Positions 35,198-50,718 of a DNA stretch of 64,000 nucleotides are shown here, in pieces. Within the stretch, counting starts at the first letter, position 1, and each line of letters starts with the position of its first letter. Source of the stretch: Candidatus Woesearchaeota archaeon (lineage in GTDB: Archaea; Nanobdellota; Nanobdellia; Woesearchaeales; UBA10216); contig JACPTG010000003.1 in NCBI GenBank assembly GCA_016192905.1, forward strand, positions 1 through 64,000, written 5' to 3'. Below the pieces are notes generated by a model. That model made no database searches. It saw nothing but the letters and a program-made list of their open reading frames with translations, and was not told the origin of the DNA. The position numbers were made by a program, and so were the translations under genes.

Positions 35198-36879
35198 GTG
35201 AAAGGAAACGCATCAGCCGCAATACTGGCATTCGCAATACTCATAGCCCTCCTTCCGACAGCATTGGCAGCAGACCCGGGCCACCCTGCCAGCAGCATAG
35301 GACAGGCGACGTTCGAGACAGGCAACTTCAGCTTCACCGGGAACGTGAGCATAGGCGGAGGCGGCAAGCTCCTGCTCTTCTTTGACAACTCAACAGGCAG
35401 CCTTGGACTCGGCACAGTCATACCGCCAAGCAGCCCAACAGGCTACACCCCAGTCATAGTGCTGAGGGGAGACGCCACCGCAATCCTGTTCAACGACACA
35501 GACGCAGCCTCAGACACTTGGGCAGTGGCAGGCAATGACGGCTTTTCAATAAGGGACGAGAACGACCAAGCGACAAGGCTCTTCATAACAGACAGCGGCG
35601 ATGTCGGCATCGGCACAGTCAGCCCAATAGCGAAGTTCCACGTTGAGGGTGGCAATGCAACCATAAACGGCAACTTCAGCGTTGGCGGTGGCGGGACTCT
35701 GAGGCTGTTCGTGGATAACAGCAGCGGGAATGTCGGGATTGGAACTACAACACCAGCATCAAAACTGGTCATTGTAGATACTACCAATTCTGACACGGCA
35801 CAAACAATATTAAATCTTACGAGGTATCGTAGTATAATGCTGCTGGGCCTTTCATCTATTCAAGGATTGCAGGAGTTCAAACCGATGGCGTTCAAGATGA
35901 TGATGCAGATTTAAGAATTAGCACTATGAAGAATGGAGTTTTAAGTGAAGATATCCGGATAAGTGCTGGCAACGTCGGCATCGGGACGACGAGCCCGGCA
36001 AGGTTATTGGATATAAAAGGTGCTGGTGCGGGGGGTAATCAACAAGTACTAATTAACGCAAGCGACAACGGTGATGCTGGTCTGAGGTTTGAAACTCTTG
36101 GAGATGCTTGGCATATCGGTAAATCAACTTCTGGTAATTTCTTCTTTTATGATACAGATGGAACGGCTGACACGAGGATGGTTATTCAGAATAGCACCGG
36201 CAACGTCGGCATCGGGAGTGGGGAAACTAACCCTGCGACAACTCTGGAAGTGAACGGGACAATAAGGGCTATACGCACTATCAGCATACTTAACACCATT
36301 GATGTTGGCAGCGGTGCAACCATAACAAGCGGCGGGACTTACGGCGGCATGAACATCACTACAGACAGCGGGTTAACCTCAGGCCCGGCATTCTCAGTCA
36401 TAACATACCTCAACCCAGGAGGCATCTATAATGCTGCGCTGACAGTGACGGCACCGGGAAAGGTCGCTGTTTATTCCCTTGCTGCTGCGACTGCAAACAC
36501 CCTCTGTTATGACACGACAACTGTAAATGGGATGAACACACTTAGCACCTGCTCATCCAGCAGGAGATACAAGGAGGATATTAAGCCTTTAATCGTGGAT
36601 AAGAGTAAGGTGTTCCAGCTTCAGCCAGTCTCTTTCAAGTGGAAGGGTAGGAATGAGTCCGGCGTTGGTTTGATTGCTGAGGATGTTGAACCTGTAATCC
36701 CTGAAATCGTCGGATATTATGACGGCAGGATTGAAAGCGTGGAGTACAAGCTACTGACAGTCTACCTTCTTGACATTGTGAAGAAGCAGGATAAGACAAT
36801 ACAGGAACTTGAGCAGAAAAACAGGCAGGTAGAGAGTCGGCTCGCCAGGCTGGAAGGCCAATGCGCAAAGCTCTGCTAA
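35198..36879 (+). pseudogene. Fibre gene with S74 chaperone, split by a frameshift
   Basis: A GTG (in-frame ATG at 35147) starts a signal peptide (ILAFAILIALLPTALA, ADPGH) and a stalk with FSVGGGGTLRLFVDNSSGN and NVGIGTT repeats. The frame shifts at about 35834 and stops at 35914. The remaining frame is open from about 35836 to 36879 and encodes more repeats plus the S74 intramolecular chaperone (SSRRYKEDIKP, GVGLIAEDVEPVIPE) and a coiled-coil tail ending LARLEGQCAKLC. The shift sits exactly at the end of a roughly 165-bp block shared with 3835-3995 of the first fibre gene. Either a recombination error or programmed; a base-call error is possible. Confidence 0.75.
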
Positions 36880-37024
36880 GGGTCTGCAGCCGGACAGAGC
36901 CAAAGCATGCCAGGCTAAGCTGCGCCAGCTGCGCACAGTCTTGCCCTGCATTTTTCAGGCATAAAGTGAACTTGCAATAAGTATTTAAACCCTGTCTGCT
37001 TCTGCCGTGAACTGGTGAAGTGAA
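36880..37024 (+). repeat. Intergenic island element, copy 1, with shared promoter
   Basis: It follows the S74 stop and contains the ggtctgcagccg... segment, then cttgcaataagtatttaaac and tgccgtgaactggtgaagtg just before the RelB ATG. The agtatttaaa part is a TATA box. Related copies lie between most TA modules up to 50.7 kb. Confidence 0.75.
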
Positions 37025-37201
37025 ATGCCACAGGTAACGTTGGAGACAATCCATAAGGACTTGGAACTTATCAAAAATGAAATAAAACATATTAGAGGGA
37101 AGATAGCAGATGTTGATGCTGTCTTAACTGACGATGATATGGAATCGTTAAATGAAGCTGAAGACGATTTAAGGAAAGGCAGGACAAAGAAATTGGCCTA
37201 A
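37025..37201 (+). CDS. RelB-like antitoxin
   Basis: 58 residues: MPQVTLETIHKDLELIKNEI, then ADVDAVLTDDDMESLNEAE and a basic end. A helical protein one nt before a RelE gene. A near-identical copy lies at 49354, and the first 10 residues are also used by the antitoxin at 50719. Driven by the island promoter. Confidence 0.78.
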   Translation: MPQVTLETIHKDLELIKNEIKHIRGKIADVDAVLTDDDMESLNEAEDDLRKGRTKKLA

Positions 37202-37202
37202 A

Positions 37203-37460
37203 ATGTATTCTGTAGACCTGTCTCAAAAGTCCCAGAAGTTTTTGGATAAGCTTGATAAGCGCATGAGGGAGAGAATTGAAGAGAGGCTCAGGAATCTCTC
37301 GGAAAACCAGGTCCCATCGGATGCCAGGTTTATCTGCAGGGACAATAATGACAAAGTCTTCAGGTACAGAATAGGCGACTTTAGGGCGTTATATAAAATA
37401 AAGTTGCAGGATAAGATTGTTTTGATTACAAAAATAGATAAAAGACCAAGAGTGTATTAA
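37203..37460 (+). CDS. RelE-family toxin
   Basis: 85 residues. MYSVDLSQKSQKFLDKLDKR, then DKVFRYRIGDFRALYKIK and KIDKRPRVY are the beta-sheet core and C-terminal Arg/Tyr residues typical of RelE/ParE mRNA interferases. Intact. Near-identical to the gene at 49532. Confidence 0.88.
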   Translation: MYSVDLSQKSQKFLDKLDKRMRERIEERLRNLSENQVPSDARFICRDNNDKVFRYRIGDFRALYKIKLQDKIVLITKIDKRPRVY

Positions 37461-37463
37461 AAA

Positions 37464-37721
37464 CCTGCAATTGCTTTCTGCTGCAACCCCTGCAATTGGG
37501 CCATGCGGCTCGCAGGCTGATGCGCAAAGCCCTGCTAAGGGTCTGCAGCCGAACAGAGCCAAAGCATGTCCGGTTAAGCTGCGCAAAGTGGCGCGTAGCC
37601 ATGCCCGCATTTTTCCAGCCACAGCCTGTTTCTGAAGTATCCAGGGCTTTTTGGCGGCGGAATGTGGGGCAATTACAGAGAGCAGATAATTATTTAAATC
37701 TAGGCATGTTGCGATGGCAAA
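37464..37721 (+). repeat. Intergenic island element, copy 2
   Basis: It contains ctgctgcaacccctgcaa, a fossil of the S74 tail (ggctcgcaggctgatgcgcaaag), tctgcagccgaacagagcc, a T-rich gggctttttgg segment and a TATA box (ttatttaaatc) before 37722. Confidence 0.7.
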
Positions 37722-37925
37722 ATGGAAACTTTACAGATAAAAAAATCCGATTTCAGCAAAATTCTGGAAACTGCCGAGCTGCTGATTAGTGAAGTGGAGC
37801 AGGCGCTTTCTCAGGATGATATAGTTAAGGCAAGGATGGGAGATATAAAGGCCGGGAGGGTAAATGGCAAGAGTGAACAGGAACTTGATGAATACTTAAA
37901 AAGGAGAGGAGTCAAAATTGTCTGA
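37722..37925 (+). CDS. Antitoxin-like protein upstream of broken RelE
   Basis: 67 residues: METLQIKKSDFSKILETAEL, then KARMGDIKAGRVNGKSEQEL and a C-terminal EYLKRRGVKIV. The helical layout and the overlap with a RelE frame suggest a RelB-type antitoxin. Intact while its toxin is not. Confidence 0.6.
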   Translation: METLQIKKSDFSKILETAELLISEVEQALSQDDIVKARMGDIKAGRVNGKSEQELDEYLKRRGVKIV

Positions 37926-38214
37926 ATGGGTAATAAGAGCATCCGGATTTCTTTAAGGATTTACACAATCTCGGCAACAAGGACCTGGAGATTTTTTACA
38001 AGAAAAAGAACAAAATAAAGGAGAAGCCCATCAGGCAGAAACATCTTAGCGGCGGCCAGAATTGCTATAGGGAGCCAATAACCGGTAATATTAGGCTCGT
38101 GTATTTTGTGGAGGGGAAAACTTTTGGCTGCTTACAGTAGGCCGCCATGACAAGTCCTATGAGGAATTCAAAAAAAGATTATATACATTGCGAATAAGGT
38201 ACGGATTGAAATAA
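37918..38214 (+). pseudogene. RelE toxin broken by two frameshifts
   Basis: A TTG at 37918 starts LSEWVIR. A shift is then needed to reach EHPDFFKDLHNLGNKDLEIF and PIRQKHLSGGQNCYREPITG, and another near 38130 to reach LLTVGRHDKSYEEFKKRLY. Together they form a complete RelE-like fold. Two lesions in one gene argue for decay. Confidence 0.7.
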
Positions 38215-38461
38215 AACCTGCAATACAGGCAATTTCTCTCTGCTGCAACCCCGGCAGGGGGACAGATGGCTGAGGGGGCAATTGCGGGGAATATCGGGCC
38301 ACGCTTCGCAAAGTGCGCATAGGCATGTCCCGAATGTTTGGGATAAATGCGGAATCTGAAGCATCCGGGGCTTTTTTCCGGTGCGGAATCTGGGGCTCCT
38401 AAATGAGCTCGCAATAAGTATTTAAACCCCGCCTGCTTATGCCGTGAATTGGTGAAGCATT
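38215..38461 (+). repeat. Intergenic island element, copy 3, with shared promoter
   Basis: Contains ctctgctgcaaccccggcag, fossil gaatatcgggccacg, gaagcatccggggctttttt, and ctcgcaataagtatttaaac plus tgccgtgaattggtgaag before the HicB ATG. The same promoter thus drives HicBA here and RelBE at 37025. Confidence 0.75.
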
Positions 38462-38740
38462 ATGACTAAACAAATATTGATAAACGTTATTGTTAAGGAA
38501 GAGGACAAGGGATATTCAGTCATATGCCCCGAACTTAATGTGGCGAGCCAGGGCGAGACCTTTGAGGAAGGCATCTCCAACATTAAAGAAGCTGTGGAAT
38601 TGTATATTGAAAGCGCAGAGCAGCTTGGAATTTTTGATGAAGTTCTGGAGCAGCTGGGCATCTCAAAAGAAGACTTTGGGAAAGGGAGAATAATTCCGAG
38701 ATTGGTCACTGCAAATGTTCCAATAGAGATTGCAGTTTAG
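38462..38740 (+). CDS. hicB: HicB-family antitoxin
   Basis: 92 residues. INVIVKEEDKGYSVICPELN and SQGETFEEGISNIKEAVELY are the degraded RNase-H-like HicB fold. It precedes HicA by 3 nt. Confidence 0.88.
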   Translation: MTKQILINVIVKEEDKGYSVICPELNVASQGETFEEGISNIKEAVELYIESAEQLGIFDEVLEQLGISKEDFGKGRIIPRLVTANVPIEIAV

Positions 38741-38743
38741 AAA

Positions 38744-38923
38744 ATGAAACTGCCTGTTGTTTCCGGCGCGCAAGTTTTAAAATTGCTTCAGAAGGAAGGG
38801 TTCTCCGTTACAAGGCAGAGAGGCTCGCATGTTTCGCTTCACAAAAAATTCCCTGATGGGACTATGGCTTTGGTTGTTGTGCCGTTAAAAAGCGAGATAA
38901 AAGAGTTTATTGGTAAAATCTGA
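38744..38923 (+). CDS. hicA: HicA-family toxin, shortened
   Basis: 59 residues. MKLPVVSGAQVLKLLQKEGF and RQRGSHVSL carry the HicA dsRBD-like fold with the catalytic His. The C-terminus ends VPLKSEIKEFIGKI and lacks the KGTLLEIIRQSGL helix present in the gene at 50224, so activity is doubtful. Confidence 0.8.
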   Translation: MKLPVVSGAQVLKLLQKEGFSVTRQRGSHVSLHKKFPDGTMALVVVPLKSEIKEFIGKI

Positions 38924-38929
38924 AGAGTC

Positions 38930-39010
38930 ATGACGGCAATTTCTTTCTGCTGCAACCCCCGGCAGGGGGACTGGATGACAGACGGTTAAGCGTGCAAGGG
39001 AAGTGAAATA
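38930..39010 (+). repeat. Intergenic island element, copy 4 (5' part)
   Basis: ggcaatttctttctgctgca, a short hairpin cccccggcaggggg, and gaagtgaaatatcgggcaac, which here runs into a real fibre fragment. Confidence 0.65.
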
Positions 39011-39409
39011 TCGGGCAACCTAGGCATCGGGACGACGAGTCCAACGCACCTTTTGAACGTAAAAGGAAATGCTAATGTGTCAGGAAGTCTCCAAGTGGGA
39101 AGTGCTACAGGTGGCATATCAGGGATAGATTATACTTTAGCAAATAACGGAGATCAGAATCTGTGTTGTGATACTGGTAAGCGGGGATTAGTTATTCTAT
39201 ATGACAGGACAAACGACCAGACGTGTGTATTTGCCCTAGGCAGTTCTGGATACATAACAGAGATTGCTGATCCCAATGGCGTTTGCTCAACAACATCCGG
39301 AACAGCAAGCAACTCAAATTATTACCATTATTCCGCGGGGGATTTCCACTTGGAAAACAAGAGGGGAGTTACAGTCACTTATTCAATTTTTCAAATAGGA
39401 GGGCCTTGA
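39011..39409 (+). pseudogene. Fibre-protein C-terminal fragment without a start
   Basis: The frame begins SGNLGIGTTSPTHLLNVKGN and ends with a compact head (NGDQNLCCDTGKRGLVILYD, VTYSIFQIGG). No signal peptide or promoter precedes it. It shows what the shorter SGNVGIG fossils in the other intergenic elements derive from. An internal ATG at 39053 could start a small protein. Confidence 0.65.
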
Positions 39410-39410
39410 G

Positions 39411-39700
39411 CTACTGATAGTTAACAGCCTAATGGATTATAAGCCAGGCTAACTCAGGAAGGCCAATGCCACATCCTGCCAGATTTGTTGATGATAGCTA
39501 ACCTGTTAGCGGATAACCGAGCCCAAGCCTGCCACGCTTCGCAAAGTGCACATGGCCCCGTCCCGCATTTTTCAGCCACACCCTTTTTCTGAAGTATCAG
39601 GGGCATGAAACCCGGGCAAAATGTGTGCAAAAATGGAATTTAAAATAATGAAGAAATAAAGCAAGTTATAAATAGTTGAAGGTAATTCTAGAAGTAGGTG
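39411..39700 (+). repeat. Intergenic island element, copy 5
   Basis: Holds cacgcttcgcaaagtgca and gcatttttcagccacaccct, tctgaagtatcaggggca, then an AT-rich promoter stretch (aagttataaatag) before the VapBC pair. Confidence 0.6.
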
Positions 39701-39709
39701 GTGGGAAGA

Positions 39710-39904
39710 ATGGAAGTTTTGGAAGAGTTGGAAAGTAAGATAAGATTGGCAGGGATTACTCCTATAAAACAAATAGCAAGTATTAGATTAGGAACTAAGA
39801 CGCCGGCTGCATGGGATAGTTTGGCAAAGATAGGGAAAAAAATAAGCGATGGTTGGAAATTAAAGGAATCTAGCTGGCAGATTGTTTCAGAAAGCAGGAG
39901 ATAA
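39710..39904 (+). CDS. VapB-like antitoxin
   Basis: 64 residues from ATG 39710, after a GGTGGTGGG ribosome-binding site. EVLEELESKIRLAGITPIKQ, then GWKLKESSWQIVSESR. It ends 1 nt before the PIN gene. TATA box at about 39665. Confidence 0.65.
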   Translation: MEVLEELESKIRLAGITPIKQIASIRLGTKTPAAWDSLAKIGKKISDGWKLKESSWQIVSESRR

Positions 39905-39905
39905 G

Positions 39906-40328
39906 ATGTATTGCTTGGATGCAAGTGTAATTACAAACTCAGTTATTGAAAGGGAAGAGTATCACAAAGACAGCAAGGCTTTGTTGTTAAAAATCAGGAA
40001 TGAGAATATTCCGGTGGTGCTGCCTGAAATAATAGTGCCTGAGGTCGCGTCCGCTCTTTCTAGAGGAACAGGAAATGCCAAACTTTCTCTGCAATTTGCA
40101 GCCGAAATAAGAAAAATCCCCAACTTTGTTTTTATTCCGATTGATGCTGAAATTTCTAATCTCGCAGCAAAAATTGCGGCAGAAAATCAAATGAGAGGTG
40201 CAGATTCAATTTATACTGCAATTGCCTTGGTATTTAATGTTAGGTTGGTCACACTCGATACTGAACAGCTTAAAAAGTCCAAAAGCAGTGTTAATTCGGC
40301 AACGCCTTTTGAGGAGTTAAGAGAGTAG
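39906..40328 (+). CDS. vapC: VapC PIN-domain toxin
   Basis: 140 residues. MYCLDASVITNSVI (first Asp), LPEIIVPEVASAL (Glu), GADSIYTAIALVFNVRLVTL and the following D complete the PIN active site. Normal length. Confidence 0.9.
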   Translation: MYCLDASVITNSVIEREEYHKDSKALLLKIRNENIPVVLPEIIVPEVASALSRGTGNAKLSLQFAAEIRKIPNFVFIPIDAEISNLAAKIAAENQMRGADSIYTAIALVFNVRLVTLDTEQLKKSKSSVNSATPFEELRE

Positions 40329-40329
40329 G

Positions 40330-40640
40330 AGAGGCTATCATCCTGCAACCCCCGGCAGGGGGACTGGGGGCAAAGGGGCTAAAGGGACAGGGGAAGTGAA
40401 ATATCGGGCGACCCCGGCATTGGCGCCATGCGGCCCGCCAGGCTGGAAGGCTGATACGCCAGCCAATGCTAAGGGTCGGCTGCGGAACAGGGCCAACGCC
40501 AGCCACTCCGTGCTACGCCAGCTGCTCATAGCCATTCCCGGCTTTTTTCAGCCACAGCCTGATTTCTGAAGAATCCGGGGCTTTTTCGGTGCGGAATGCG
40601 GGGCATGGAAATAACCGAAAAATATAAATAGTATACTCCG
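40330..40640 (+). repeat. Intergenic island element, copy 6
   Basis: Complete-looking copy: cctgcaacccccggcagggg, fossil gaaatatcgggcgaccccgg, fossil S74 tail ggcccgccaggctggaaggc, ggtcggctgcggaacaggg, gaagaatccggggctttttc and tgcggaatgcggggca. Confidence 0.75.
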
Positions 40641-40666
40641 TAGTAGACTACTTACAGGTAGACTAT

Positions 40667-42040
40667 ATGTTCCTAAATAGAAAAGCTGAGTTGCAGGAGC
40701 TTGAGAAACTCTACGGGGAAAGCAAGCCAAAGCTGGTGATCCTCTATGGCAGGAGAAGGGTTGGCAAAACCGCCCTTCTTTGGGAATTCGCCAAAAAGAA
40801 CAAGGGGCTGTATCTTCTGGGAAGGCAGGAGTCTGAGGCAGAGCAATTGAGAAGATTCAGCGAGGAAATAGCGGAGTTTTTCAATGACTCCTTTTTGAAG
40901 GTGAACCCGCTTTCAGGCTGGGACGCTTTCTTCACCTATCTGGGAGAGAAGCTGTCAAAAAGCAAGGTTCCGCTGTTTTTTGACGAGTTTCCATATATGG
41001 TGGAATCCAACAAATCCCTGCCTTCAATCCTGCAGGACTACTGGGACAATACGTTTTCAAAAACAAGCGCTTTCATAATTCTGTGCGGCTCTTCGATATC
41101 AATGATGGAGGGCCTTGCAGGATACAAAAGCCCTCTTTACGGAAGAAGGACAGAACAGATAATTCTTGAGCCGCTTACCTTTTTCCAGGCAGCTGAATTT
41201 TTCAAGGGCATGAGCAGGGAGGATGCCGTGACGTTCTATTCTGTGCTGGGCGGAAGTCCGGCCTATCTGCTGGAATTCAACCTGGGAAAGAATCTGCTGG
41301 ACAACATAAAAGATAACATGCTCCAGCGGGCAAAGTTCCTCTACAATGACGTCATGTTTGTTCTGAGGGAAGAATTACATGAGCCAAGGAATTATTTCTC
41401 AATCCTTCATTCTGTTTCTAAAGGCAATGCAAAAATAGGCGAGATAGTCAATGACACAGGCCTTCCAAAGGGCACAGTGTCAAAATACCTGTCTGTGCTG
41501 TCTGACCTGCGTATCGTGGAAAGAAGAGTTCCAATCACAGAAAAAAGGATGCAAAACTCCAGAAAAGGGCTGTATTTCATTAAGGACAACTACTTCAATT
41601 TCTGGTTCAGGTTCGTATTCCAGAATATATCGTACATAGAGCAGGGCAGGATAGACAAGCTTGTGGATGAGCGCATCAAGCCTGAATTAAACGCCTATAT
41701 CGGAAGGCAGTTTGAAAATATGGCTTTTCAGTGGCTGCAAAAAAAATTCCAGTCGTATCTATGGGGAAGGTGGTGGCATGGGGATAAGGAGTTGGATTGT
41801 GTGGGGATAGACGAAAAAAACAGGAAAATAGCCTTCGTGGAAGTCAAATGGTCTTCTTTAACAGATGCGGACATCAATTCTGTGTTTGCCGAATTAAAAG
41901 GCAAATCACAATTTGTCAGTTGGGAAAGTGAAGGGCGGGCGGAGGAATTCATGATTATAGCAAAAGAAGCCAAGGAAAAATCAAATTTCAGGAATGTTTT
42001 TGATTTGGGCGACTTTAACCTCGGCAATGATTCTGGATGA
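40667..42040 (+). CDS. Archaeal ATPase (ATPase_2 plus DUF234)
   Basis: 457 residues. Walker A GRRRVGKT at residues 28-35, Walker B PLFFDEFPYMV, sensor CGSSISMME, then a winged helix (LPKGTVSKYLSVLSDLRIV) and the DUF234 region with a nuclease-like end (WWHGDKELDCVGID, AFVEVKW). A family expanded in archaea with unclear function. A TATA box (aaaatataaatag) lies upstream. A paralogue is at 46234. Confidence 0.9.
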   Translation: MFLNRKAELQELEKLYGESKPKLVILYGRRRVGKTALLWEFAKKNKGLYLLGRQESEAEQLRRFSEEIAEFFNDSFLKVNPLSGWDAFFTYLGEKLSKSKVPLFFDEFPYMVESNKSLPSILQDYWDNTFSKTSAFIILCGSSISMMEGLAGYKSPLYGRRTEQIILEPLTFFQAAEFFKGMSREDAVTFYSVLGGSPAYLLEFNLGKNLLDNIKDNMLQRAKFLYNDVMFVLREELHEPRNYFSILHSVSKGNAKIGEIVNDTGLPKGTVSKYLSVLSDLRIVERRVPITEKRMQNSRKGLYFIKDNYFNFWFRFVFQNISYIEQGRIDKLVDERIKPELNAYIGRQFENMAFQWLQKKFQSYLWGRWWHGDKELDCVGIDEKNRKIAFVEVKWSSLTDADINSVFAELKGKSQFVSWESEGRAEEFMIIAKEAKEKSNFRNVFDLGDFNLGNDSG

Positions 42041-42255
42041 GGGGCAATACCTGACAGGGCATATAGACCTTATACAGATAAGGAATGGGGCGATTTAAAT
42101 AATGGACTACAAGCCCTCTGCAGCCAAGGAGCGGCCTGTTGACCAGCTTGTCATTTGTGCTCTATTACTATGAGTTTTTCCCGCTGCGTGCCGTTTACCA
42201 GAAGCGGTAGCAAGTTTTATATAATAGTGAGCATCAATAACCTATAGGGATGTAA
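42041..42255 (+). other. Intergenic region with promoter and a degraded repeat
   Basis: About 70 bp (cctgttgaccagcttg... to ccgtttaccagaag) resemble 43330-43405 and may be gene remnants. A TATA box (gttttatataat) at about 42213-42224 serves the DUF433 gene. Confidence 0.45.
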
Positions 42256-42540
42256 ATGGCAAAAGTACTACAATCAAAAATCGTAAAAGACAAAATTATG
42301 TCTGGAAGCCCAAGAATAGCTGGCACTAGAATAAGGGTAAGGGATGTTGTGGAAAAGCATATTGTATTAGGCTACTCACCAGAAGATATAGCTGAAGCTT
42401 TCAATCTCTCCTTAGCAGCAGTGTATGATGCTCTTTCTTACTATTATGAATGCACAGGGGAGATTCAGGAAGAGATAAAGAAAGATAAAGAATTTGTGGA
42501 GAAATTCAGGAAAGATTTTAAACATGAAATTCTTAGCTGA
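42256..42540 (+). CDS. DUF433 antitoxin
   Basis: 94 residues. KDKIMSGSPRIAGTRIRVRD is the DUF433 core, and GYSPEDIAEAFNLSLAAVYD the HTH. It overlaps the toxin by 17 nt. Confidence 0.88.
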   Translation: MAKVLQSKIVKDKIMSGSPRIAGTRIRVRDVVEKHIVLGYSPEDIAEAFNLSLAAVYDALSYYYECTGEIQEEIKKDKEFVEKFRKDFKHEILS

Positions 42541-42847
42541 TGAAAATGTAGATTTACCCGCTGTAAGGGCATTAAAAAGATTAGGGGTAGATATAATTTC
42601 CGTCCATGATGTTGGTATGAAAGGATACGTGGACGAGGGAATATTAAATTATGCCAAAGAAAATAAAAGAGCAGTGATTACCCGAGATTCAGATTTCTTA
42701 AGGCTTGATAGGAAGGGTGCAGAACATGCAGGAATCATGTTTTTAACAGAACCGCTTGATGCAAGCAGACTTATCAAGGAATCCCAAAAAATTATCATGT
42801 TATTCGATAATTTGGAGAATACAGTTGTTTACATACCACTAAAATGA
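42524..42847 (+). CDS. DUF5615 PIN-like toxin
   Basis: 107 residues from ATG 42524. MKFLADENVDLPAVRALKRL and AVITRDSDFLRLDRKG are the acidic motifs. Overlapping start with DUF433, intact. Confidence 0.88.
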   Translation: MKFLADENVDLPAVRALKRLGVDIISVHDVGMKGYVDEGILNYAKENKRAVITRDSDFLRLDRKGAEHAGIMFLTEPLDASRLIKESQKIIMLFDNLENTVVYIPLK

Positions 42848-43450
42848 TTATCGGGCAACGTCGGCATTGGGGCGACCGGGCCGATAGCGCAGGATTTGCT
42901 GAAAAACGAACCCAGAACTTGTCCAGTCAGGCCTGAGGCTACTGTCAGGTTTCCGAGCTGTCCCAGTTGGTACTCGTGAAGGCAGTACAGGAGCTGAAGG
43001 CAGAAGTCCAAAAGCTGAAAATTCAGGCTGATAGAGGGCAATAGGGGCGGAATTCCGCAGGAAGCGGGCGGGCGTCTTTGCCCCGAATATTTCGGACAGG
43101 CCTGCTTTCTGAAGCATCCCGGGCTTTTTCTGTGCGGGATGCGGGGCATGCTGCTTTTCAGTTTTGCAGCTTTTTCCCGGAAGACTTTTACAAAAGCCGG
43201 AAATCCTGTGGCTTGGGCGGGATTTTTGCGGCTTATGGATGCGAGCTTTTATCAATTGGCAGGCATGGTATAACTCATCGCATATAGGGCCTTTTTTGCA
43301 TGGGAGCAGGCAATTACCAAGTTATGCAGAAAGGCCTGCTGACCAATTAACCATATATGCGCTTATTACCATGAGTTCTTTACGCTGCCTGGTGTTTATG
43401 AAAAACAACATTTAAATACTTGGGCAGTTTATTAGACTAAGTGGGAGAAA
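42848..43450 (+). repeat. Intergenic island element, copy 7, with fibre and S74 fossils
   Basis: Starts tatcgggcaacgtcggcatt (SGNVGIG), then IAQD, and in another frame VKAVQELKAEVQKLKIQA, the S74 coiled-coil tail. gcggaattccgcaggaagcg and gaagcatcccgggctttttc follow. A 70-bp stretch resembles 42110-42200. TATA box acatttaaata lies before 43451. Confidence 0.7.
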
Positions 43451-43702
43451 ATGGCCAATATCGAACTTAAGCTGCATGGTCTTCAGGATAAGCTGCTAGA
43501 CAGATTTGTAGATAAGGGGTTTGCAGAATCCAGGGAAGAAGCTCTAAGATTTGCTTTACTAAAGTCTGCGCTAGATTTAGGGCTAATTGACCAAAAATTG
43601 TTGGTTAAGGAAATAAGAGGGGATTTAGGCAAAGATAAAAAGCTTGTTCATGATATCCTGAAAGATATTAAGGAAATAAAAAATGAGAGCATTTTTGGAT
43701 AG
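43451..43702 (+). CDS. VapB-like antitoxin
   Basis: 83 residues. NIELKLHGLQDKLLDRFVDK, then SREEALRFALLKSAL is an RHH-like N-terminus followed by a charged toxin-binding tail. Overlaps the PIN gene by 20 nt. Confidence 0.75.
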   Translation: MANIELKLHGLQDKLLDRFVDKGFAESREEALRFALLKSALDLGLIDQKLLVKEIRGDLGKDKKLVHDILKDIKEIKNESIFG

Positions 43703-44102
43703 CAGCGCTATTATAATAGGTCTTGCCATAGAAAAATCGAATTCTGCAAAAATTCTAGATTTGTTATTCAACAATAAAATAGATGCTGCTATCAGTGAAA
43801 AGGTTTTGAAAGAAGTAAAGAAATATTTCAGAGAAAAAAGAAGCAGAAATTATGCTTATATGATAGAACTTCTTTTAAGAAAGAATTGCAAAATTGTTTA
43901 TAATTATGAAGTCAAGGAAAAAATGGCAGAGCTAAAAGGGAAAATCAAGGATAAAGATTTGGAACAGTTAGCTGTTGTCAAGAAACATAATTTGAAAAAC
44001 TTAGTGGGTTTTGATAGGGACTTTGAAAACTTTACAGAGTATATCCCTCCAAAGCAATTTATTCGAAAATTGAATCTTGAAGCATACGAAACAGAGTATT
44101 GA
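43683..44102 (+). CDS. VapC-like PIN toxin
   Basis: 139 residues. MRAFLDSSAIIIGL (first Asp), AISEKVLKEVKKYF (Glu), KDKDLEQLAVVKKHNLKNLV and GFDRDFENF (acidic motifs). Complete. Confidence 0.85.
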   Translation: MRAFLDSSAIIIGLAIEKSNSAKILDLLFNNKIDAAISEKVLKEVKKYFREKRSRNYAYMIELLLRKNCKIVYNYEVKEKMAELKGKIKDKDLEQLAVVKKHNLKNLVGFDRDFENFTEYIPPKQFIRKLNLEAYETEY

Positions 44103-44427
44103 TCAATCTCGGCTCTGCTTTGTTTACAATAAGTCAAACGATTAAATCAGGCAACCCCTGCATTGGCACAGGGACAGATGACTAAGGGGCAAGGGCGGGA
44201 AATATCGGGCAACCCCGGCATTTTGGGACAGGCGCCCCGCAAGTTGGAAGGCCGATGCGCAAAGCCCTGCTATGAGCCAGGGGCCGAACAAGGGGAAAGC
44301 CTGCCATGCCACGCTGCTCAAAGTGCTCATAGCCATGCCCGGCTTTTTTCAGCCGCAGCCAGTTTCTGAAACATCCGGGGCTCTTAAGTAGACTTGCAAT
44401 AAGTATTTAAGCTCCAATAATTTATGA
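44103..44427 (+). repeat. Intergenic island element, copy 8
   Basis: Fossil ggaaatatcgggcaaccccg, fossil S74 tail (cgcaagttggaaggccgatg), tgcccggcttttttcagccg, gaaacatccggggctctt, and the shared promoter cttgcaataagtatttaagc. Confidence 0.72.
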
Positions 44428-44646
44428 GTGAACAGGTGGCGCGAAGTGGAAACTGAAATATTGGTCAAGATACAGGAGGATTTGGAATTCCTTAAAAAGG
44501 AAGTTGTTGAGATAAAGGAACATATGTTGGATATAGACCGGATAATGACAGAGGACGATTATAGGGCTTTAGTGGATTACGAAAAGGAAAAGTCGCAGGG
44601 AAGGCTAAAATCGCATGAAGAACTGAAGAAAGAATTAGGATTATGA
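44428..44646 (+). CDS. RelB-like antitoxin
   Basis: 72 residues from GTG 44428 (GTG 44446 also possible). EILVKIQEDLEFLKKEVVEI, then MTEDDYRALVDYEKEKSQG. Same helical style as the 50719 protein. Overlaps the broken RelE gene (ATGA). Confidence 0.68.
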   Translation: MNRWREVETEILVKIQEDLEFLKKEVVEIKEHMLDIDRIMTEDDYRALVDYEKEKSQGRLKSHEELKKELGL

Positions 44647-44823
44647 TGATGTTTGAAGTATCATATTCTAATCAGGCTGACAAATTTCTGAGGAAAGCTG
44701 AAAAAATCATTGCGGATTATTCAGAAAATAGAGGAACTTTCGCGAGAGCCTGTAATCCATGAAGCGACCTGCCAAGGGACTGGCTGCAGAACCCGGGAGT
44801 GCTTCTTTTGTCCGGGTAGTTGA
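44643..44823 (+). pseudogene. RelE-like toxin, frameshifted and truncated
   Basis: MMFEVSYSNQADKFLRKAEK starts a RelE fold. After IIADYS a shift is needed to read IQKIEELSREPVIHEA, after which homology is lost. The antitoxin upstream is intact. Confidence 0.65.
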
Positions 44824-44918
44824 CTAAAAGGCAACTCTACTTTAACTTTAGCAGGGTTAAAATTGAACTGGATGTTAATATTAGTAAAGTTTAAATATAT
44901 GGCATCTATTGATGGTGC

Positions 44919-46085
44919 ATGCCCTATGTTGAGCGTGAGATAGCTGACAAGTTCAGGAAGCTGCGGGAAATATATGGCCTTATAGCAGTGGTTGGGGCTC
45001 GTCAGGCAGGTAAAACAACCTTCCTGAAGGAGCAGATGAAACAGGCTCAGGCTTCCTATGTGCTTTTTGACGATCCTGACGCGCAGGCCCTTTTTGAGGA
45101 CATAAAGAAGTTTCAGAGGCAGTATTGCGAGGGATTCGAGGTTACCTTGCTGGATGAGGTTCAGTACTGCCAGGATGCAGGAAGAAAGCTCAAATACCTT
45201 GCAGATACCGGCAAAAAGATATGGATGACATCATCATCAGAAATCCTGTTGGGCAAGGATATACTCTCCTACCTTGTTGGAAGGGTCTCAATCCTCAGGA
45301 TATACCCTTTTTCCATCACTGAATTTCTGGCTGCAATGGGGCAGAAGGAAACTGCCCCTGACCTGCTGAGGCGGGCCGTATGGGAGCACATAAACTACGG
45401 AGGCTATCCCAAGGTCGTGATGACAGAAGACGCTGAAGCAAAGAAGACCATCCTGAGAGACCTGTATGAAACAATGATATTCAAGGATGTGGCGAGGACC
45501 TTCTCAATCGAGGACATAAGGTCTCTTGAGGAGTTTTCAAAATACCTGTCACTGAACATCGGGGGCGCAATCTCCCATGAAACAATCTCCCGCAACATAA
45601 AAATCTCCTTCCAGACAACCAAAAAGTACCTTGATGCCCTGGAAAAAAGCTACATAATCGTGCGGGTGCAGCCATTCCACACCAACAAGGCAAAGGAAAT
45701 TGCAAAGCAGCCAAAGCTGTATTTCCTTGATACTGGCCTGAGAAACAGCGTGGCAAAAACATTCGGCGCAGAGCCTGATGGGAAGCTGTTTGAGAATTAC
45801 GTCCTTTCAGAGCTGTTGAAAGCCGGAGCGGCCCCGAAGTACTGGCGGACCAAATCAAAGGCAGAGGTGGATTTTATACTTGAAAAGGAAGGCGAAGTTG
45901 TCCCCATAGAGGTCAATCTCAATGCAGAGCCCGGCCGCATAGAAAGAAGCCTTCACTCATTCATAGCAGCCTACAATCCAAGGAAAGCGCTGGTGATAAG
46001 CTACAAGGGGGAAAAGGGCTGGACACAGGTGGATGGCTGCAGGGTAATCTTCACCGACGCCCTTGAAATGAGGAAGCATATTTAA
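44919..46085 (+). CDS. DUF4143-family ATPase (AAA_14)
   Basis: 388 residues. Walker A GARQAGKT at residues 26-33, Walker B TLLDEVQYCQ, MTSSSEILL sensor, HTH-like SHETISRNIKISFQTTKKYL and C-terminal YFLDTGLRNSVAKTF and AEVDFILEKEGEV. A TATA box (gtttaaatatat) lies about 25-30 nt upstream, so leaderless. Related to the 6304 protein. Confidence 0.9.
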   Translation: MPYVEREIADKFRKLREIYGLIAVVGARQAGKTTFLKEQMKQAQASYVLFDDPDAQALFEDIKKFQRQYCEGFEVTLLDEVQYCQDAGRKLKYLADTGKKIWMTSSSEILLGKDILSYLVGRVSILRIYPFSITEFLAAMGQKETAPDLLRRAVWEHINYGGYPKVVMTEDAEAKKTILRDLYETMIFKDVARTFSIEDIRSLEEFSKYLSLNIGGAISHETISRNIKISFQTTKKYLDALEKSYIIVRVQPFHTNKAKEIAKQPKLYFLDTGLRNSVAKTFGAEPDGKLFENYVLSELLKAGAAPKYWRTKSKAEVDFILEKEGEVVPIEVNLNAEPGRIERSLHSFIAAYNPRKALVISYKGEKGWTQVDGCRVIFTDALEMRKHI

Positions 46086-46233
46086 GTGAATTTAATGTGG
46101 ATTGAGGTGAAGAATTATAATTCCGTACCCAAATCAGCGCAATTTACGATATCCGAGGCTTTTTCGCTGCTGCAAGCGGGGTGTGGAAGCGTCAACCAAA
46201 AGCTTTATATAGTATGTATACAATACATAATGT

Positions 46234-47637
46234 ATGGGAAACATACAGTTCATCGACAGAAAAAGGGAGCTTGAATTACTGGAAAGCCTGGGAAGCAAGG
46301 ACTTCTTCATGGTCATAAGGGGCAGGAGAAGAATAGGAAAAACAACCCTTGTAAGAAAAGCATTCCCTGACGCCGCCTATATGTTTGTGTGGCCCAACAA
46401 ATCATATGCGTGGGTTGTAGATGAAATCTGCACAGAGCACAGCCTTCCCAAGTTCTCAAACATTGTTGATGTGATGCGCTACCTGCTGGACAGGGGCGAC
46501 ATAGTAATCATTGATGAATTCCAGAATTTCCTGAGCATTGATAAGTCGGTTTTCGGGGAGATGCAAAAGCTGATAGACGAGAGGAAAATGAAAAAGCAGG
46601 CAGTCAGAATTATAGCAAGCGGCTCAAGTTATTCCCTGATAAACAGGTTGTTCAATACGGAAGCGTCGCCGCTCTACGGAAGAAGAACGCATGAAATGGT
46701 GCTTCAGGAACTTCCTGCGGAGGATTTGCTTCTTTCTCTCAATACAGGAATGGAGGAATTCGTGAAGGTGTGGTCTGTCTTTGGAGGCGTGCCATATTAT
46801 TATGCCATAACAGAGCTTCATGCCCCAATTGAGAAAATAATAGCTGGAATGATTGAAAAAAGGGATTCTATGCTTCTGGACGAAGGCAAAGTAATTTTGT
46901 CAGTGGAGTTCGGGAGGGAGTCGAAAACATACAGCACTATCCTGACAGCGATAGCGGAGGGCAAAACAAGGCTGGGAGAAATATCCTCATTATTCTCGGG
47001 CAAGAAGGGAGAAACCATGAAATACATGGACATCCTTAGAAAGGAATTCGGCCTTATAAGGAGGGTAACGCCGATACTGTCTGACCCTGGGAAGTCCAGG
47101 GAAGGGGTTTATGAAATAAATGATAACTTTCTTTCATTTTGGTTCTATTTTATAGACAAGCAGAGGGCTTACATCGAGCAGGAAAGGTTTGGCGAGGTAA
47201 TATCATTTTTTAAGGAGAATTTCCCCGCTTATGTCGGAAGAAAGTTTGAAAAGTTTGTGGCTTATCTCATAAGGAATAAAATAGTGTTTTCTGATTTCGG
47301 ATTTGAAAAGGCAGGAAGGCAGTGGGGAAGGCTACCCGATAGCTTCAAGCCGGAATCGGGAAGCGACCAGTACGAAATAGACCTGCTGGCCCTGAACGAA
47401 AAGACCAAGGAAATCCTTTTCTGCGAGTGCAAATGGCAGGATAAGGTGAATGCCAAAAAAGTCGCGATGGAGCTGGAAGTAAAATCAAAATTCGTGAACT
47501 GGAATGTCGGCAGCAGGAAGGAAATGTTTGCGATTTTTGCAAAGTCATTCGGAACAAAAATCTCTGAATTCGAAGGCAAGCATGTCAGATGCTTTGACTT
47601 GAAAGATTTGGAAGGAATTGTGCAGAATTCAAAATAA
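46234..47637 (+). CDS. Archaeal ATPase (ATPase_2 plus DUF234)
   Basis: 467 residues. Walker A GRRRIGKT at residues 30-37, Walker B IVIIDEFQNFL, ASGSSYSLI sensor, a winged helix near residues 245-280 and a nuclease-like end (YEIDLLALNE, LFCECKWQDK). Paralogue of 40667. A TATA box (ctttatatag) lies at about 46203. Confidence 0.9.
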   Translation: MGNIQFIDRKRELELLESLGSKDFFMVIRGRRRIGKTTLVRKAFPDAAYMFVWPNKSYAWVVDEICTEHSLPKFSNIVDVMRYLLDRGDIVIIDEFQNFLSIDKSVFGEMQKLIDERKMKKQAVRIIASGSSYSLINRLFNTEASPLYGRRTHEMVLQELPAEDLLLSLNTGMEEFVKVWSVFGGVPYYYAITELHAPIEKIIAGMIEKRDSMLLDEGKVILSVEFGRESKTYSTILTAIAEGKTRLGEISSLFSGKKGETMKYMDILRKEFGLIRRVTPILSDPGKSREGVYEINDNFLSFWFYFIDKQRAYIEQERFGEVISFFKENFPAYVGRKFEKFVAYLIRNKIVFSDFGFEKAGRQWGRLPDSFKPESGSDQYEIDLLALNEKTKEILFCECKWQDKVNAKKVAMELEVKSKFVNWNVGSRKEMFAIFAKSFGTKISEFEGKHVRCFDLKDLEGIVQNSK

Positions 47638-47639
47638 TA

Positions 47640-47993
47640 ATCCTGGCAAAGGAATGAATGCAGATATTATTTTGCTGAAGGCAGAAGTGCAAAAGCTGAA
47701 AATCCAGGCATAAAGGGGCAAGTAGGGGCGGAATTCCGCAAGAAGCGGGCGGGAGTCCCTGTCCCGGATATTTCGGATATATGCGGAATCTGGGGAATCC
47801 AGGGCTTTTTCCGCGCAGAACCTGAGGCATGCTGCTTTTCGGTTTTGCAGCTTTTCTCCGGAAGATTTTCACAAGAACTGCAAATCCTGCGGCCTATTCT
47901 ATGTGACTCAGCACCATAATTATCGTATACTCAGTTACATATGCTATTCAGTAACATAAAATTTATATACTTAGTCGCTGAAGGACTCAGGGC
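47640..47993 (+). repeat. Intergenic island element, copy 9
   Basis: Fossil S74 tail ILLKAEVQKLKIQA, gcggaattccgcaagaagcg, gggaatccagggctttttcc, close to copy 7 (tgctgcttttcggttttgca). TATA box aaatttatatac at about 47957 serves the HEPN gene. Confidence 0.7.
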
Positions 47994-48386
47994 GTGAAGG
48001 CGGAGGAGCATGTCAGGGCATTTCAGGAGCACAGGGCTGTTATAGACTGGGCAATAGACCGCGGCATGGACAAGTCGCAGAGGATTGTCGGCACGCACGC
48101 CTCCCGGGCAATAACAGAACTGCTGTCCGCCTATCTCCACATAAATGGAAAAATTGATGCAGGCTTTCAGATAAACCACAGATGGTTCAAGACAGGCAAA
48201 GTTGGCGAGAAATTTCCGGATTTTCAGAAGAAGACGGCCATACTCGCCAGGATGGTTGAGCTTGAAAATTTGTCAGAAAACCTCACTTATGGTTCGCAAA
48301 GGGCTGAAGGGGAGGTCAAACGGGCTATTGAGCTTGTAAACGAGCTGGAGTTGCTGCTCAAAGGGATGATGAACGATGAAAAATAA
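47994..48386 (+). CDS. HEPN-like protein paired with MNT
   Basis: 130 residues, GTG start about 25 nt after the TATA box. Helical: EHVRAFQEHRAVIDWAIDRG, SRAITELLSAYLHINGKID and NHRWFKTGKVGEKFPDF. Overlaps the nucleotidyltransferase gene by 11 nt. HEPN assignment rests on this pairing and helical pattern. Confidence 0.7.
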   Translation: MKAEEHVRAFQEHRAVIDWAIDRGMDKSQRIVGTHASRAITELLSAYLHINGKIDAGFQINHRWFKTGKVGEKFPDFQKKTAILARMVELENLSENLTYGSQRAEGEVKRAIELVNELELLLKGMMNDEK

Positions 48387-48987
48387 GGTGGTTGCGTATG
48401 CTCTTCATTTCACCTCCTTCCTGCTGGAGAGCGGAATACAGCCGCATAGGGTCATTCTCTTTGGTTCTGTCGCTACAGGAGAATCAGATAAGGAAAGTGA
48501 CGTGGACGTCTTCATTGATACGGATAAATCCGATGAAACGGGGATTAGAAATGCGTTGAAAATCTTTGAAAAAACATTCGGCGAGAAGTGGGCTTTGAAA
48601 GGCGTCTCAAATCCCCTGTCTTTAAGGATTGGGGAGCTGGATAAATGGCCTGGCTTGAAAAGGAGCATGCAGAGCTATGGCATCCTCCTTTATGGAAAAT
48701 ATGCGGATTTCCCCGGGAACATGCAGACTTACCTGCTCTTCAGGCTGAATTTTGGCAAAATGCCAAGGGCCAGGAAGATAAGTATGTGGAGGAAAATTTA
48801 TGGGTATGCCCAAAAGCCTGGCAGGAAAAAGTATGAGATGAAAGGCCTCATTCATGACCTTGGTGGGAAAAAACTGGAAAAAGGCGTTGTTATTATTCCC
48901 TTGGAAGCCTCTCATGAATTCAGGGAATTTCTTAACAAAAACCGGATTGGATTCACTGTAAACGAAATTTGGAGCGATAGCCTCTGA
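48376..48987 (+). CDS. Nucleotidyltransferase (MNT-like) with C-terminal extension
   Basis: 203 residues. VILFGSVATGESDKESDVDV is the catalytic core (residues about 26-45). The extension to 203 residues (GKMPRARKISMWRKIYGYAQ, EFREFLNKNRIGF) is not seen in the short MNT genes here and could hold a DNA-binding or regulatory part. Confidence 0.8.
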   Translation: MKNKVVAYALHFTSFLLESGIQPHRVILFGSVATGESDKESDVDVFIDTDKSDETGIRNALKIFEKTFGEKWALKGVSNPLSLRIGELDKWPGLKRSMQSYGILLYGKYADFPGNMQTYLLFRLNFGKMPRARKISMWRKIYGYAQKPGRKKYEMKGLIHDLGGKKLEKGVVIIPLEASHEFREFLNKNRIGFTVNEIWSDSL

Positions 48988-49353
48988 TACGCCAGGGCTT
49001 CCAGGTATGTCCCTGGAATACAGGTTGGACTGATAGCGCAGGATGTCGAGAAAGTGCTGCTACACCATTAGTGAATGAAAAGAACAGGCAGCTGGAAATG
49101 AGGATTGATGAGATGGATTCAAGGCTGAATGATGCTGAGGCTGGAAAGCCTGCAAAATGAAAATTCAGTCAAATAGTGGCGGAATTCCACAGGAAGCAGG
49201 GTGGGAGCCCATGCCCCGAATATTTCGGACAGGCCTGGAATCTGAACTATCCGGGGCTTTTTCTGTGCGGAATGCGGGGGCGTGCTGCTATTAGCCGAAC
49301 TTGCAATAAGTATTTAAACCCGGCCTGCTTGTGCCGTGAACTGGTGAAGTGAA
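48988..49353 (+). repeat. Intergenic island element, copy 10, with S74 fossil
   Basis: VGLIAQDVEKVLLHH (S74 core end) stops, then NEKNRQLEMRIDEMDSRLND (coiled-coil tail), then ggaattccacaggaagcagg, actatccggggctttttctg, and the shared cttgcaataagtatttaaac promoter. Confidence 0.75.
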
Positions 49354-49530
49354 ATGCCGCAGGTAACGTTGGAGACAATCCATAAGGATTTGGAACTTAT
49401 CAAAAATGAAATAAAACATATTAGAGGGCAGATAGCAGATGTTGATGCTGTCTTAACTGACGATGATATGGAATCGTTAAATGAAGCTGAAGACGATTTA
49501 AGGAAAGGCAGGACAAAGAAATTGGCCTAA
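49354..49530 (+). CDS. RelB-like antitoxin (near-copy of 37025)
   Basis: 58 residues, differing from the 37025 protein at about one residue (RGQIAD for RGKIAD). Same promoter and leader. Confidence 0.78.
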   Translation: MPQVTLETIHKDLELIKNEIKHIRGQIADVDAVLTDDDMESLNEAEDDLRKGRTKKLA

Positions 49531-49531
49531 A

Positions 49532-49789
49532 ATGTATTCTGTAGAACTGTCTCAAAAGTCCCAGAAGTTTTTGGATAAGCTTGATAAGCGCCTGAGGGAG
49601 AGAATTGAAGAGAGGCTCAGGAATCTCTCGGAAAACCAAGTCCCATCGGATGCCAAGTTTATCTGCAGGGACAATAATGACAAAGTCTTCAGGTACAGAA
49701 TAGGCGACTTTAGGGCGTTATACAAAATAAAGGACCAGGCTAAGATTGTTTTGATTACAAAAATAGATAAAAGACCAAGAGTGTATTAA
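49532..49789 (+). CDS. RelE-family toxin (near-copy of 37203)
   Basis: 85 residues, a few substitutions relative to 37203 (for example YKIKDQAKIV for YKIKLQDKIV). Intact RelE core and C-terminal KRPRVY. Confidence 0.88.
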   Translation: MYSVELSQKSQKFLDKLDKRLRERIEERLRNLSENQVPSDAKFICRDNNDKVFRYRIGDFRALYKIKDQAKIVLITKIDKRPRVY

Positions 49790-50018
49790 AAAGCTGCAAA
49801 CCAGGCCAGGGGACAAATAGCTGAGGGGGCAACTGCAGGGAATATCGGGCAACGTCGGCATTTGGGCCAAGCGGCCCGCCATGTTCATGCGCATAGTCTT
49901 GGCCCCCATTTCAGCCACAGCCTGTTTCTGAACTATCCGGGGCTTTTTCTGTGCGGGATGCGGGGCATGAAAAAAGTTTTTAAATACCGGTCGGTATTAA
50001 TAATGAGTCTGAATCAAA
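49790..50018 (+). repeat. Intergenic island element, copy 11
   Basis: Contains gggaatatcgggcaacgtcg (fibre fossil), catttcagccacagcctg, actatccggggctttttctg and a TATA box (gtttttaaatacc) before HicB. Confidence 0.7.
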
Positions 50019-50252
50019 ATGGACCTGACCGCAGTTATAAAGAGAGGGGAAAAGCAGTTTGTGGCGTTATGCCCCCAACTGGATGTTGTCAGTCAAGGCC
50101 CTACAATAGAAGAGGCCATTAAGAACCTTAAAGAGGCATGCGAGCTCTATGTGGAAGAAATTGGCCTTCCAGAAGGGCTTAGTTCAGAAGACATTATTGT
50201 TACCACCATTGAGGTCAAAGGGCATGAAACTGCCCAGGCTGTCAGGGCCTGA
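50019..50252 (+). CDS. hicB: HicB-family antitoxin (short form)
   Basis: 77 residues. DLTAVIKRGEKQFVALCPQL and SQGPTIEEAIKNLKEACELY are the HicB core. Overlaps HicA by 29 nt. Confidence 0.88.
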   Translation: MDLTAVIKRGEKQFVALCPQLDVVSQGPTIEEAIKNLKEACELYVEEIGLPEGLSSEDIIVTTIEVKGHETAQAVRA

Positions 50253-50448
50253 AGTAATCAAAGCTCTCTCCAAGGCGGGTTTCAAGGCGGCCAGGCAAAG
50301 AGGCAGCCATATTATTCTTGTAAAAGAAATTGAAGGCGGCAGAAAGGCTGTTGTTGTCCCAAATCATAAGGAGATAGATAAGGGAACACTGCTTGAAATC
50401 ATAAGGCAGTCTGGATTGACAAGAACCGAATTCCTTGGACTGTTATGA
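50224..50448 (+). CDS. hicA: HicA-family toxin (full length)
   Basis: 74 residues. MKLPRLSGPEVIKALSKAGF, RQRGSHIIL with the catalytic His, and KGTLLEIIRQSGLTRTEFL. Complete, unlike the 38744 copy. Confidence 0.9.
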   Translation: MKLPRLSGPEVIKALSKAGFKAARQRGSHIILVKEIEGGRKAVVVPNHKEIDKGTLLEIIRQSGLTRTEFLGLL

Positions 50449-50718
50449 TAATCTGGAATGTTGGCTGTGGAAAAAATTGGGCAATTGGTAGGAGCAGGAG
50501 CCTAAGAAACAATATCTTGCAAAGTCGGAATTGGCGCCAGGCGCCCCGCAGTTGGAAGGCTGATGCGCAAAGCCCTGCTAGGCGCCAGGGGCCGAACAAG
50601 GGGAAAGCCCGCCATGCCCGGCTTTTTTCATGCGGAATGCGGGGGCGTGCTGCTATTAGCCGAACTTGCAATAAGTATTTAAACCCTGTCTGCTTGTGCC
50701 GTGAACTGGTGAAGTGAA
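50449..50718 (+). repeat. Intergenic island element, copy 12
   Basis: Degraded fibre fossil caatatcttgcaaagtcgga, S74-tail fossil (ccccgcagttggaaggctga), then the shared promoter cttgcaataagtatttaaac and tgccgtgaactggtgaagtg. Confidence 0.72.

Follow-up and report, generated by a model that had tools for sequence, protein, structure and literature searches.

Toxin–antitoxin modules spaced by the remains of secreted fibre genes in a Woesearchaeota genome

The stretch of DNA analysed here (the 'window') covers the 64 kb at the start of contig C6 from the genome of a Candidatus Woesearchaeota archaeon (1.43 Mb, six contigs), and carries, between positions 36,880 and 50,718, an island of toxin–antitoxin (TA) modules set apart by a recurrent intergenic element. 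We find this repeat to be real and, with good support, descended from the ends of fibre genes; on sequence grounds, the element corresponds to the 3' end of fibre genes tipped with an S74 domain, together with the flank that lies behind it. In our reading, the ends of a secreted fibre gene were displaced again and again ('end displacement'), with TA modules alongside, and the island records this; we would put the probability of that reading at roughly one half. We also read a second island, which occupies positions 1 to ~16,000 on the minus strand of contig C1 (also labelled L011); 20 kb of this contig were covered.

Fourteen gene-to-gene spacers were delimited between 36,880 and 50,718. An nhmmer model built from six C1 copies alone recovers 11 copies in the window, all on the plus strand and all within 37,523-50,655, with scores of 14.4 to 155.2 bits (the best score in 20 shuffled 64-kb sequences was 13.0 bits), and none in the remainder of the 64 kb; three minus-strand 'echoes' of less than 10 bits at E ≤ 0.05 sit on these same copies. 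Once the spacer behind the S74 gene is counted (36,880-37,024, the source of the type-A flank), 12 of the 14 carry the element, as an earlier note on this DNA had estimated by reading; the two without it are 42,041-42,255 and 44,891-44,918. In the reverse test, a model of the window copies finds copies in the 20 kb of C1 at positions 9,140, 9,055, 7,523, 5,759, 3,474, 1,457 and 375, and a whole-genome BLAST with one copy as query returns 16 matches at E ≤ 0.001, every one in C6:36,838-50,614 or C1:235-7,399. In this genome, then, the element occurs only beside fibre genes, in two islands, and is not the genome-wide repeat that would have spoken against a fibre origin. The fibre N-terminal region (12 genome matches) is likewise confined to the vicinity of these two contig ends, and the S74 domain is present twice, once at the head of each island.

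DNA matches of the 3' flank reach E 9e-44 within the window and E 3e-50 on C1. Type A, the flank behind the S74 gene that stops at 36,879, matches spacers at 37,507, 40,431, 44,245 and 50,553, and that of the C1 S74 tip matches window spacers at 38,325, 40,565, 42,994, 47,675, 49,172 and 49,927, plus five other C1 sites. S74 relics align in frame, as protein, at 49,003-49,065 (86% identity, E 2e-6; part of the S74 core), 47,615-47,722 (E 7e-5) and 42,994-43,041 (E 0.004). The tatcgggcaacgtcggcat piece is, by its sequence, the NVGIG repeat of the fibres; a weight matrix trained on long fibre genes only (95% null maximum 15.1) finds relics of it at 39,014 (30.5), 42,854 (34.1), 44,150 (18.7), 49,848 (20.4) and 50,518 (16.5), the last falling under the highest of 100 null runs, 17.5. 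Chance similarity of the fossil segments, which the earlier note had named among the outcomes that would refute it, does not account for the flank matches and in-frame S74 relics.

Its picture of six ordered pieces in every copy stands only in part: the pieces exist, but they do not all recur throughout, with cttgcaataagtatttaa in five spacers (family D10), gccgtgaactggtgaag in four (family D8), and the hairpin form ctgcaaccccCggcaggggg clear in only three (~38,243, 38,950 and 40,343). In sequence, the hairpin looks like an NVGIG repeat that has decayed (44,150, ggcaacccctgcattggcac, is a similar case), and when eight copies are folded to a consensus, 1 of 12 pairs shows change on both sides, with a consensus energy of -4.7 kcal/mol; given this look, its rarity (3 of 14 spacers) and the scant covariation, we rejected the hairpin as a special signal. 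Rfam at gathering scores returns no match across 32-52 kb. cttgcaataagtatttaaac (five copies) and gccgtgaactggtgaag precede TA units and are duplicated along with them. The internal join of the NVGIG relic to the last codons of the tail is common to four, perhaps five, compact copies, which consequently look to have been copied as one compact unit rather than to have decayed singly.

The fossils are strictly polarised. Models of the fibre 5' end (leader plus signal peptide) match four fossils in the window (1,976, 2,433, 33,961 and 34,456) and, on C1, two at 13,089 and 12,304 plus a weak one at 13,590 (E 7e-4), as well as three gene starts (2,928, 35,148 and C1:11,554). Between 36,880 and 51,200 there are 11 copies of the 3' element and no 5' copy at E ≤ 1, nor does a 5' match at that threshold lie behind the C1 fibre gene ending at 9,184; the sole further 5' match in the window is at 53,406 (E 0.91). 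Conversely, 33,961-35,148 holds 5' copies and no 3' copy, and 3' matches are confined to 37,523-50,655 and C1:9,140-226, the leftovers (C1:12,276 at E 0.63, and two at E 0.3-0.7 that lie either opposite known copies, on the minus strand, or at C1:2,749) being taken as noise or echoes. Around the 35-kb gene and the C1 gene alike, the layout is 5'-TA-5'-TA-5' FIBRE 3'-TA-3'-TA-3'. The features of the window (all on the plus strand, marked +) are as follows.

1976-2484, +: two 5' fibre fossils (1976-2035 and 2433-2484) upstream of the 936-aa fibre gene 2907-5717; model match
33961-34091, +: 5' fibre fossil (leader and signal peptide), then a decayed PIN-like frame; model match, PIN-like start by eye, no Pfam match
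34456-34509, +: 5' fibre fossil directly ahead of the PIN gene 34509-34970; model match, PIN by Pfam
35147-36879, +: secreted fibre gene with NVGIG repeats and C-terminal S74 (Pfam); open reading frames (ORFs) 35147-35914 and 35833-36879 overlap in different frames
36880-37024, +: spacer 1, TA promoter piece preceded by the type-A 3' flank of the S74 gene
37025-37460, +: TA, small antitoxin-like gene (matches nothing) and ParE toxin (Pfam)
37461-37721, +: spacer 2, compact type-A element; nhmmer, flank match
38211-38461, +: spacer 3, element copy, hairpin form; nhmmer, flank match
38462-38923, +: TA, HicB/HicA; Pfam
38924-39712, +: spacer 4, headless orphan tip, open 38990-39409 from just before the NVGIG repeat, then type-A flank relic
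39710-40328, +: TA, small antitoxin-like gene and PIN toxin; Pfam PIN
40329-40666, +: spacer 5, compact type-A element, hairpin form; nhmmer, flank match
42256-42847, +: TA, DUF433/DUF5615; Pfam
42848-43450, +: spacer 7, NVGIG relic, type-B tail and flank; weight matrix, protein match, nhmmer
43451-44102, +: TA, small gene and PIN_3; Pfam PIN_3
44103-44448, +: spacer 8, NVGIG relic, compact type-A element; weight matrix, nhmmer
46086-46233, +: spacer 10, short element relic between two ATPase genes; nhmmer, 16.2 bits
47638-47993, +: spacer 11, type-B tail and flank; protein match, nhmmer
47994-48987, +: HEPN-like gene (matches no family) and MNT gene (Pfam)
48988-49353, +: spacer 12, S74 core relic 49003-49065, type-B flank, TA promoter piece; protein match, nhmmer
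49354-49789, +: TA with ParE (Pfam), inside a 503-nt unit 97% identical to 36968-37470
49790-50018, +: spacer 13, NVGIG relic, shortened element; weight matrix, nhmmer
50019-50448, +: TA, HicB-like (below Pfam cut-off) and HicA-like (by eye)
50449-50718, +: spacer 14, NVGIG relic, compact type-A element, TA promoter piece; weight matrix, nhmmer
50719-51153, +: TA-like unit, ParE-like frame with one stop; 95% identical over 482 nt to C1:3334-2853

Between the spacers lie, by family assignment, putative type II TA modules, with a toxin of known family beside a small antitoxin-like gene, and the element does lie between unrelated families, as the earlier note had it: Pfam identifies ParE twice, HicB with HicA, PIN, DUF433 with DUF5615, PIN_3 and MNT, and matches nothing for six small antitoxin-like proteins and the HEPN-like partner of MNT. 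At 34456-34970, and in one relative (G017; L154 5073-6739), a mini-frame encoding a signal peptide leads directly into the PIN gene, and no distinct antitoxin gene was seen. The islands are also interspersed with five ATPase genes of the ATPase_2/AAA_14 kind, with DUF234/DUF4143 (40667-42040, 44919-46085, 46234-47637, 6304-7599 and C1 3502-4779), and related relics of the C-terminus of another protein (by eye, YYEFFPLxAVY form) lie just before TA genes at 42130-42200, 43320-43400 and C1 ~7160. The S74 fibre gene itself shows one frame break near 35.8 kb, either biological or an assembly error. Elsewhere, two short frames that are 92% identical (11132-11492 and 12402-12762) join the leader and start of a giant gene, described below, to an S74 tail, as a collapsed fibre-like gene between TA-like genes.

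The two S74 domains score 58.8 and 49.2 bits, against a Pfam cut-off of 22 (PF13884). The serine of the conserved SD..K region would be the putative catalytic residue of S74 self-cleavage. The full fibres are mosaics; for example, 80 nucleotides are 96% identical between the 936-aa and 816-aa genes at unlike positions. Three orphan tips remain open from just before the NVGIG repeat to the stop, at window 38,990-39,409 (139 codons), C1:6,429-5,707 (240 codons) and C1:7,993-7,463 (176 codons, S74). For the 139- and 240-codon tips the NVGIG repeat is all that they share with the full fibres (matches of at least 30 nucleotides, E ≤ 1e-4), and the last 51 nucleotides of the 176-codon tip recur in the 240-codon tip at 92%.

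The S74 orphan shows 83% identity over 134 amino acids with the C-terminal portion of a fibre ORF of 509 codons in G036, a genome of the same order and another family, with the DNA match starting at the repeat. It is matched at E ≤ 1e-8 in 13 of the 287 genomes of the order, this one included, and a scan of named genomes yields five loci, namely G036 and four at 65-76% (Yanofskybacteria, Parcubacteria, Sungiibacteriota and a 'bacterium'); in these four bacterial-titled records, all metagenome-derived, the tip sits within longer frames. The 240-codon tip matches one relative, over part of its length, and the window tip matches relatives weakly; in the virus collection one contig matches the S74 tip (70%) and none matches the other two. 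Against six kin, the S74 tip has a proportion of non-synonymous change (pN) of 0.10-0.24 and of synonymous change (pS) of 0.80-0.98, which points to constraint across its whole history rather than to selection while an orphan. At 65-85%, then, this tip is common to Woesearchaeota, bacterial-titled candidate-phyla records and the one virus-collection contig, and it is possible, from these similarities, that fibre tips move between domains.

The setting of the islands can be read from a relative, G003, where prepilin peptidase, HIT, HIT, a small protein, three tandem and intact fibre frames (824, 853 and 821 codons), the giant gene, a pilin and a secretion ATPase follow one another; no TA genes were seen between them, and within that locus fibre ends match at the three fibre genes only. 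Here the prepilin peptidase and both HIT genes are on C1, and the giant gene, pilin and ATPase on C6; since the G003 order is thus split over the two contigs, their ends are most likely one locus. The giant gene (14022-32123) encodes a secreted-looking protein of 6033 amino acids, with homologues of varied length at the same place in relatives. The secretion ATPase (55058-58117) has 1019 amino acids, compared with a 648-codon frame in G003, and holds what by eye, from its motifs, is an intein-like insert. Giant gene and pilin are 19 kb apart in the window, and overlap or lie less than 100 nucleotides apart in G003, G006, G010, G014 and G017, such that all five relatives with both genes matched on one stretch have no insert at the island's spot; nothing there accordingly points to an old fibre array. 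G015 is a sixth case, with its pilin unmatched and 1.1 kb between the giant gene and the next matched gene.

Related arrangements do occur elsewhere. By eye, G001 has an MNT/HEPN-like pair next to one fibre gene and an MNT-like gene behind another; a candidate 5' fossil before that pair was dropped (a weak model match at E 0.0019, with no match to that genome's own fibre start and no signal peptide seen). In G017 the promoter, leader and signal peptide of the giant gene recur upstream, at 88% over 102 nucleotides, and once more by eye; both repeats run into a PIN-like gene, and G013 holds a similar unit. S74 was found at 11 places in 9 of 58 relatives, and at one of the 10 places whose surroundings were read, in G036, a ParE-like pair lies close behind a second fibre start. 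Other genomes thus also carry TA genes at repeated gene ends, but the 3' array has so far been seen in this one only.

We propose the following model for how repeated end displacement might build such an island. A fibre gene here begins with a signal peptide; its modules, which meet at a near-identical NVGIGTTSP repeat, are followed by a C-terminal tip (S74 or other) and a 3' flank. Incoming DNA, bearing a new tip or a new 5' end along with a TA module, would join the gene at a repeat or an end sequence; in the former case a unit of NVGIG, tip, tail, flank and TA would enter at the repeat, and the old end would be pushed outward, 3' ends downstream and 5' ends upstream, with the TA module between. 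Tips pushed out in this way would become headless orphans, a few still open, most shrunk to NVGIG, tail and flank, with one compact form itself later copied. The sequences themselves show the common descent of spacers and fibre ends, the polarity, the anatomy of the orphans, the mosaic fibres and the insert-free relatives; we infer that the route was homologous recombination between the repeats, and suggest that the TA modules persist as their loss is punished, thereby holding orphan tips in place.

Several observations weigh against this. No recombination event has been seen, and the case comes from one genome. The model finds copies beside fibre genes in both islands; in the scan of relatives that the earlier note had proposed, it finds none in the nine stretches searched (no 3' match at E ≤ 0.05). 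The 936-aa fibre gene (2,907-5,717) has 5' fossils only, with no 3' model match behind it; no tip is linked to any particular TA module; and an origin of the TA promoter piece from the fibre promoter or leader is unsupported (P 0.18-0.26 in four of five comparisons, 0.002 in one). Whole TA units are also duplicated at 95-97% identity, and this, with the join shared by the compact copies, indicates that duplication of finished units also built the island; TA toxins are, besides, common elsewhere in the genome (24 PIN and 8 ParE matches).

These last points are equally what would be expected if selfish TA modules had simply landed in a dispensable, repeat-rich locus, with segmental duplication spreading them along with fibre scraps that have no role, and the decay of most tips fits that too. 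We consider such neutral accretion a real but lesser possibility, against which stand the three tips still open over 139-240 codons, the strict polarity of 5' and 3' ends, and the fact that open and compact copies alike start at the NVGIG repeat with different TA modules ahead of them. (A gradient of decay with distance was judged by eye only, and is not claimed.)

The earlier note had itself proposed the footprint of a fibre-gene array whose fibres had each given way to a TA module. That the spacers are fibre-derived is upheld, and the syntenic G003 locus does hold three tandem, intact fibres; in-place replacement, however, would leave both 5' and 3' fossils around each TA module, and only 3' fossils are seen behind the S74 gene and only 5' fossils before it. 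With the compact copies sharing one join and the relatives lacking an insert, replacement within an old array at this spot is unsupported, and we regard it as improbable. Accretion driven by a recombinase, with the element as attachment site in the manner of integrons or stacked integrated elements, would explain why the same boundary recurs between unrelated TA families, as in cassette arrays, but we hold it very unlikely, given the little covariation in the fold and the lack of any integrase or recombinase family among the 60 Pfam-scanned proteins (a set covering neither every frame nor the rest of the genome). Least credible is retention of the element solely as a transcription stop and start insulating TA units, since, for all that its best-kept part surrounds ccggggctttttc and a tatttaaa box stands ahead of several modules, bacterial-type terminator- and promoter-like patterns are no commoner than in shuffles (16 versus 16.2, and 19 versus 20.8; archaeal signals lay outside the scan) and the coding relics are left unexplained.

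We also speculate, rather doubtfully, that the island might serve this DPANN archaeon as a TA-locked 'silent store' of adhesin tips, in which orphan tips, some shared with candidate-phyla bacteria, are held by addictive TA modules and recombined at the NVGIG repeat into an expressed fibre gene to switch attachment. How small symbiotic archaea and candidate-phyla bacteria choose or change partners is an open question, and the locus points to surface fibres with tips common to two domains, stored as displaced cassettes; it bears, moreover, on why TA modules pile up in chromosomes. Because most displaced fibre ends have a TA module beside them, a role in holding a repeat-rich array together is testable by comparison of strains.

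We found no account of this arrangement in the open literature, among the matches listed (subscription journals and preprints being outside that scope), and in the library searched no single paper contains 'Woesearchaeota', 'toxin-antitoxin' and 'adhesin' together. Phage tail fibres with the S74 chaperone domain (PF13884) share the C-terminal S74: the SD..K region aligns with that of PDB 6f45, a long tail fibre subunit (E 7e-5 against the C1 tip), and 184 phage records match that tip, every one at less than 60% identity. Unlike phage fibres, those described here have signal-peptide-like starts (by eye), and their locus has prepilin peptidase, pilin-like and secretion-ATPase genes, so that they look like cell-surface proteins rather than virion parts.

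The TA cassettes of Vibrio superintegrons likewise place many modules with their own promoters in a repeat-separated array, and PMC11023631 presents a proposal that such modules stabilise it; here, by contrast, no folded attC-like site or integron-type boundary was found, the scanned proteins include no integrase, and what repeats is part of a protein-coding gene. Closer in form are the orphan rhs-CT and cdiA-CT modules of polymorphic toxin loci (PMC3967940 and PMC3482391). These, too, are C-terminal pieces that lack a head, lie behind a complete gene and start with some of the region they share with it; there, too, a tip can be found joined to a full-length gene of a different organism (here for the S74 orphan only), and another gene travels between the pieces. 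In PMC3967940, orphans resemble displaced fragments, and recombination can join them to the main gene; in PMC3482391, toxin cassettes bring their own immunity gene through one recombination at the 3' tip. The tips described here differ in being S74 or unknown fibre tips and not recognised toxins; no toxin domain with its own immunity gene was found among them (S74 or no family, apart from a coiled-coil-like match that falls below cut-off), the genes linked to them belong to ordinary TA modules from mixed families and are not cognate immunity genes, the 5' end is displaced too, and the host is an archaeon. By analogy, the arrangement looks like a variant of these displaced-tip arrays, an archaeal counterpart of the displaced tip cassettes of Rhs/CDI systems.

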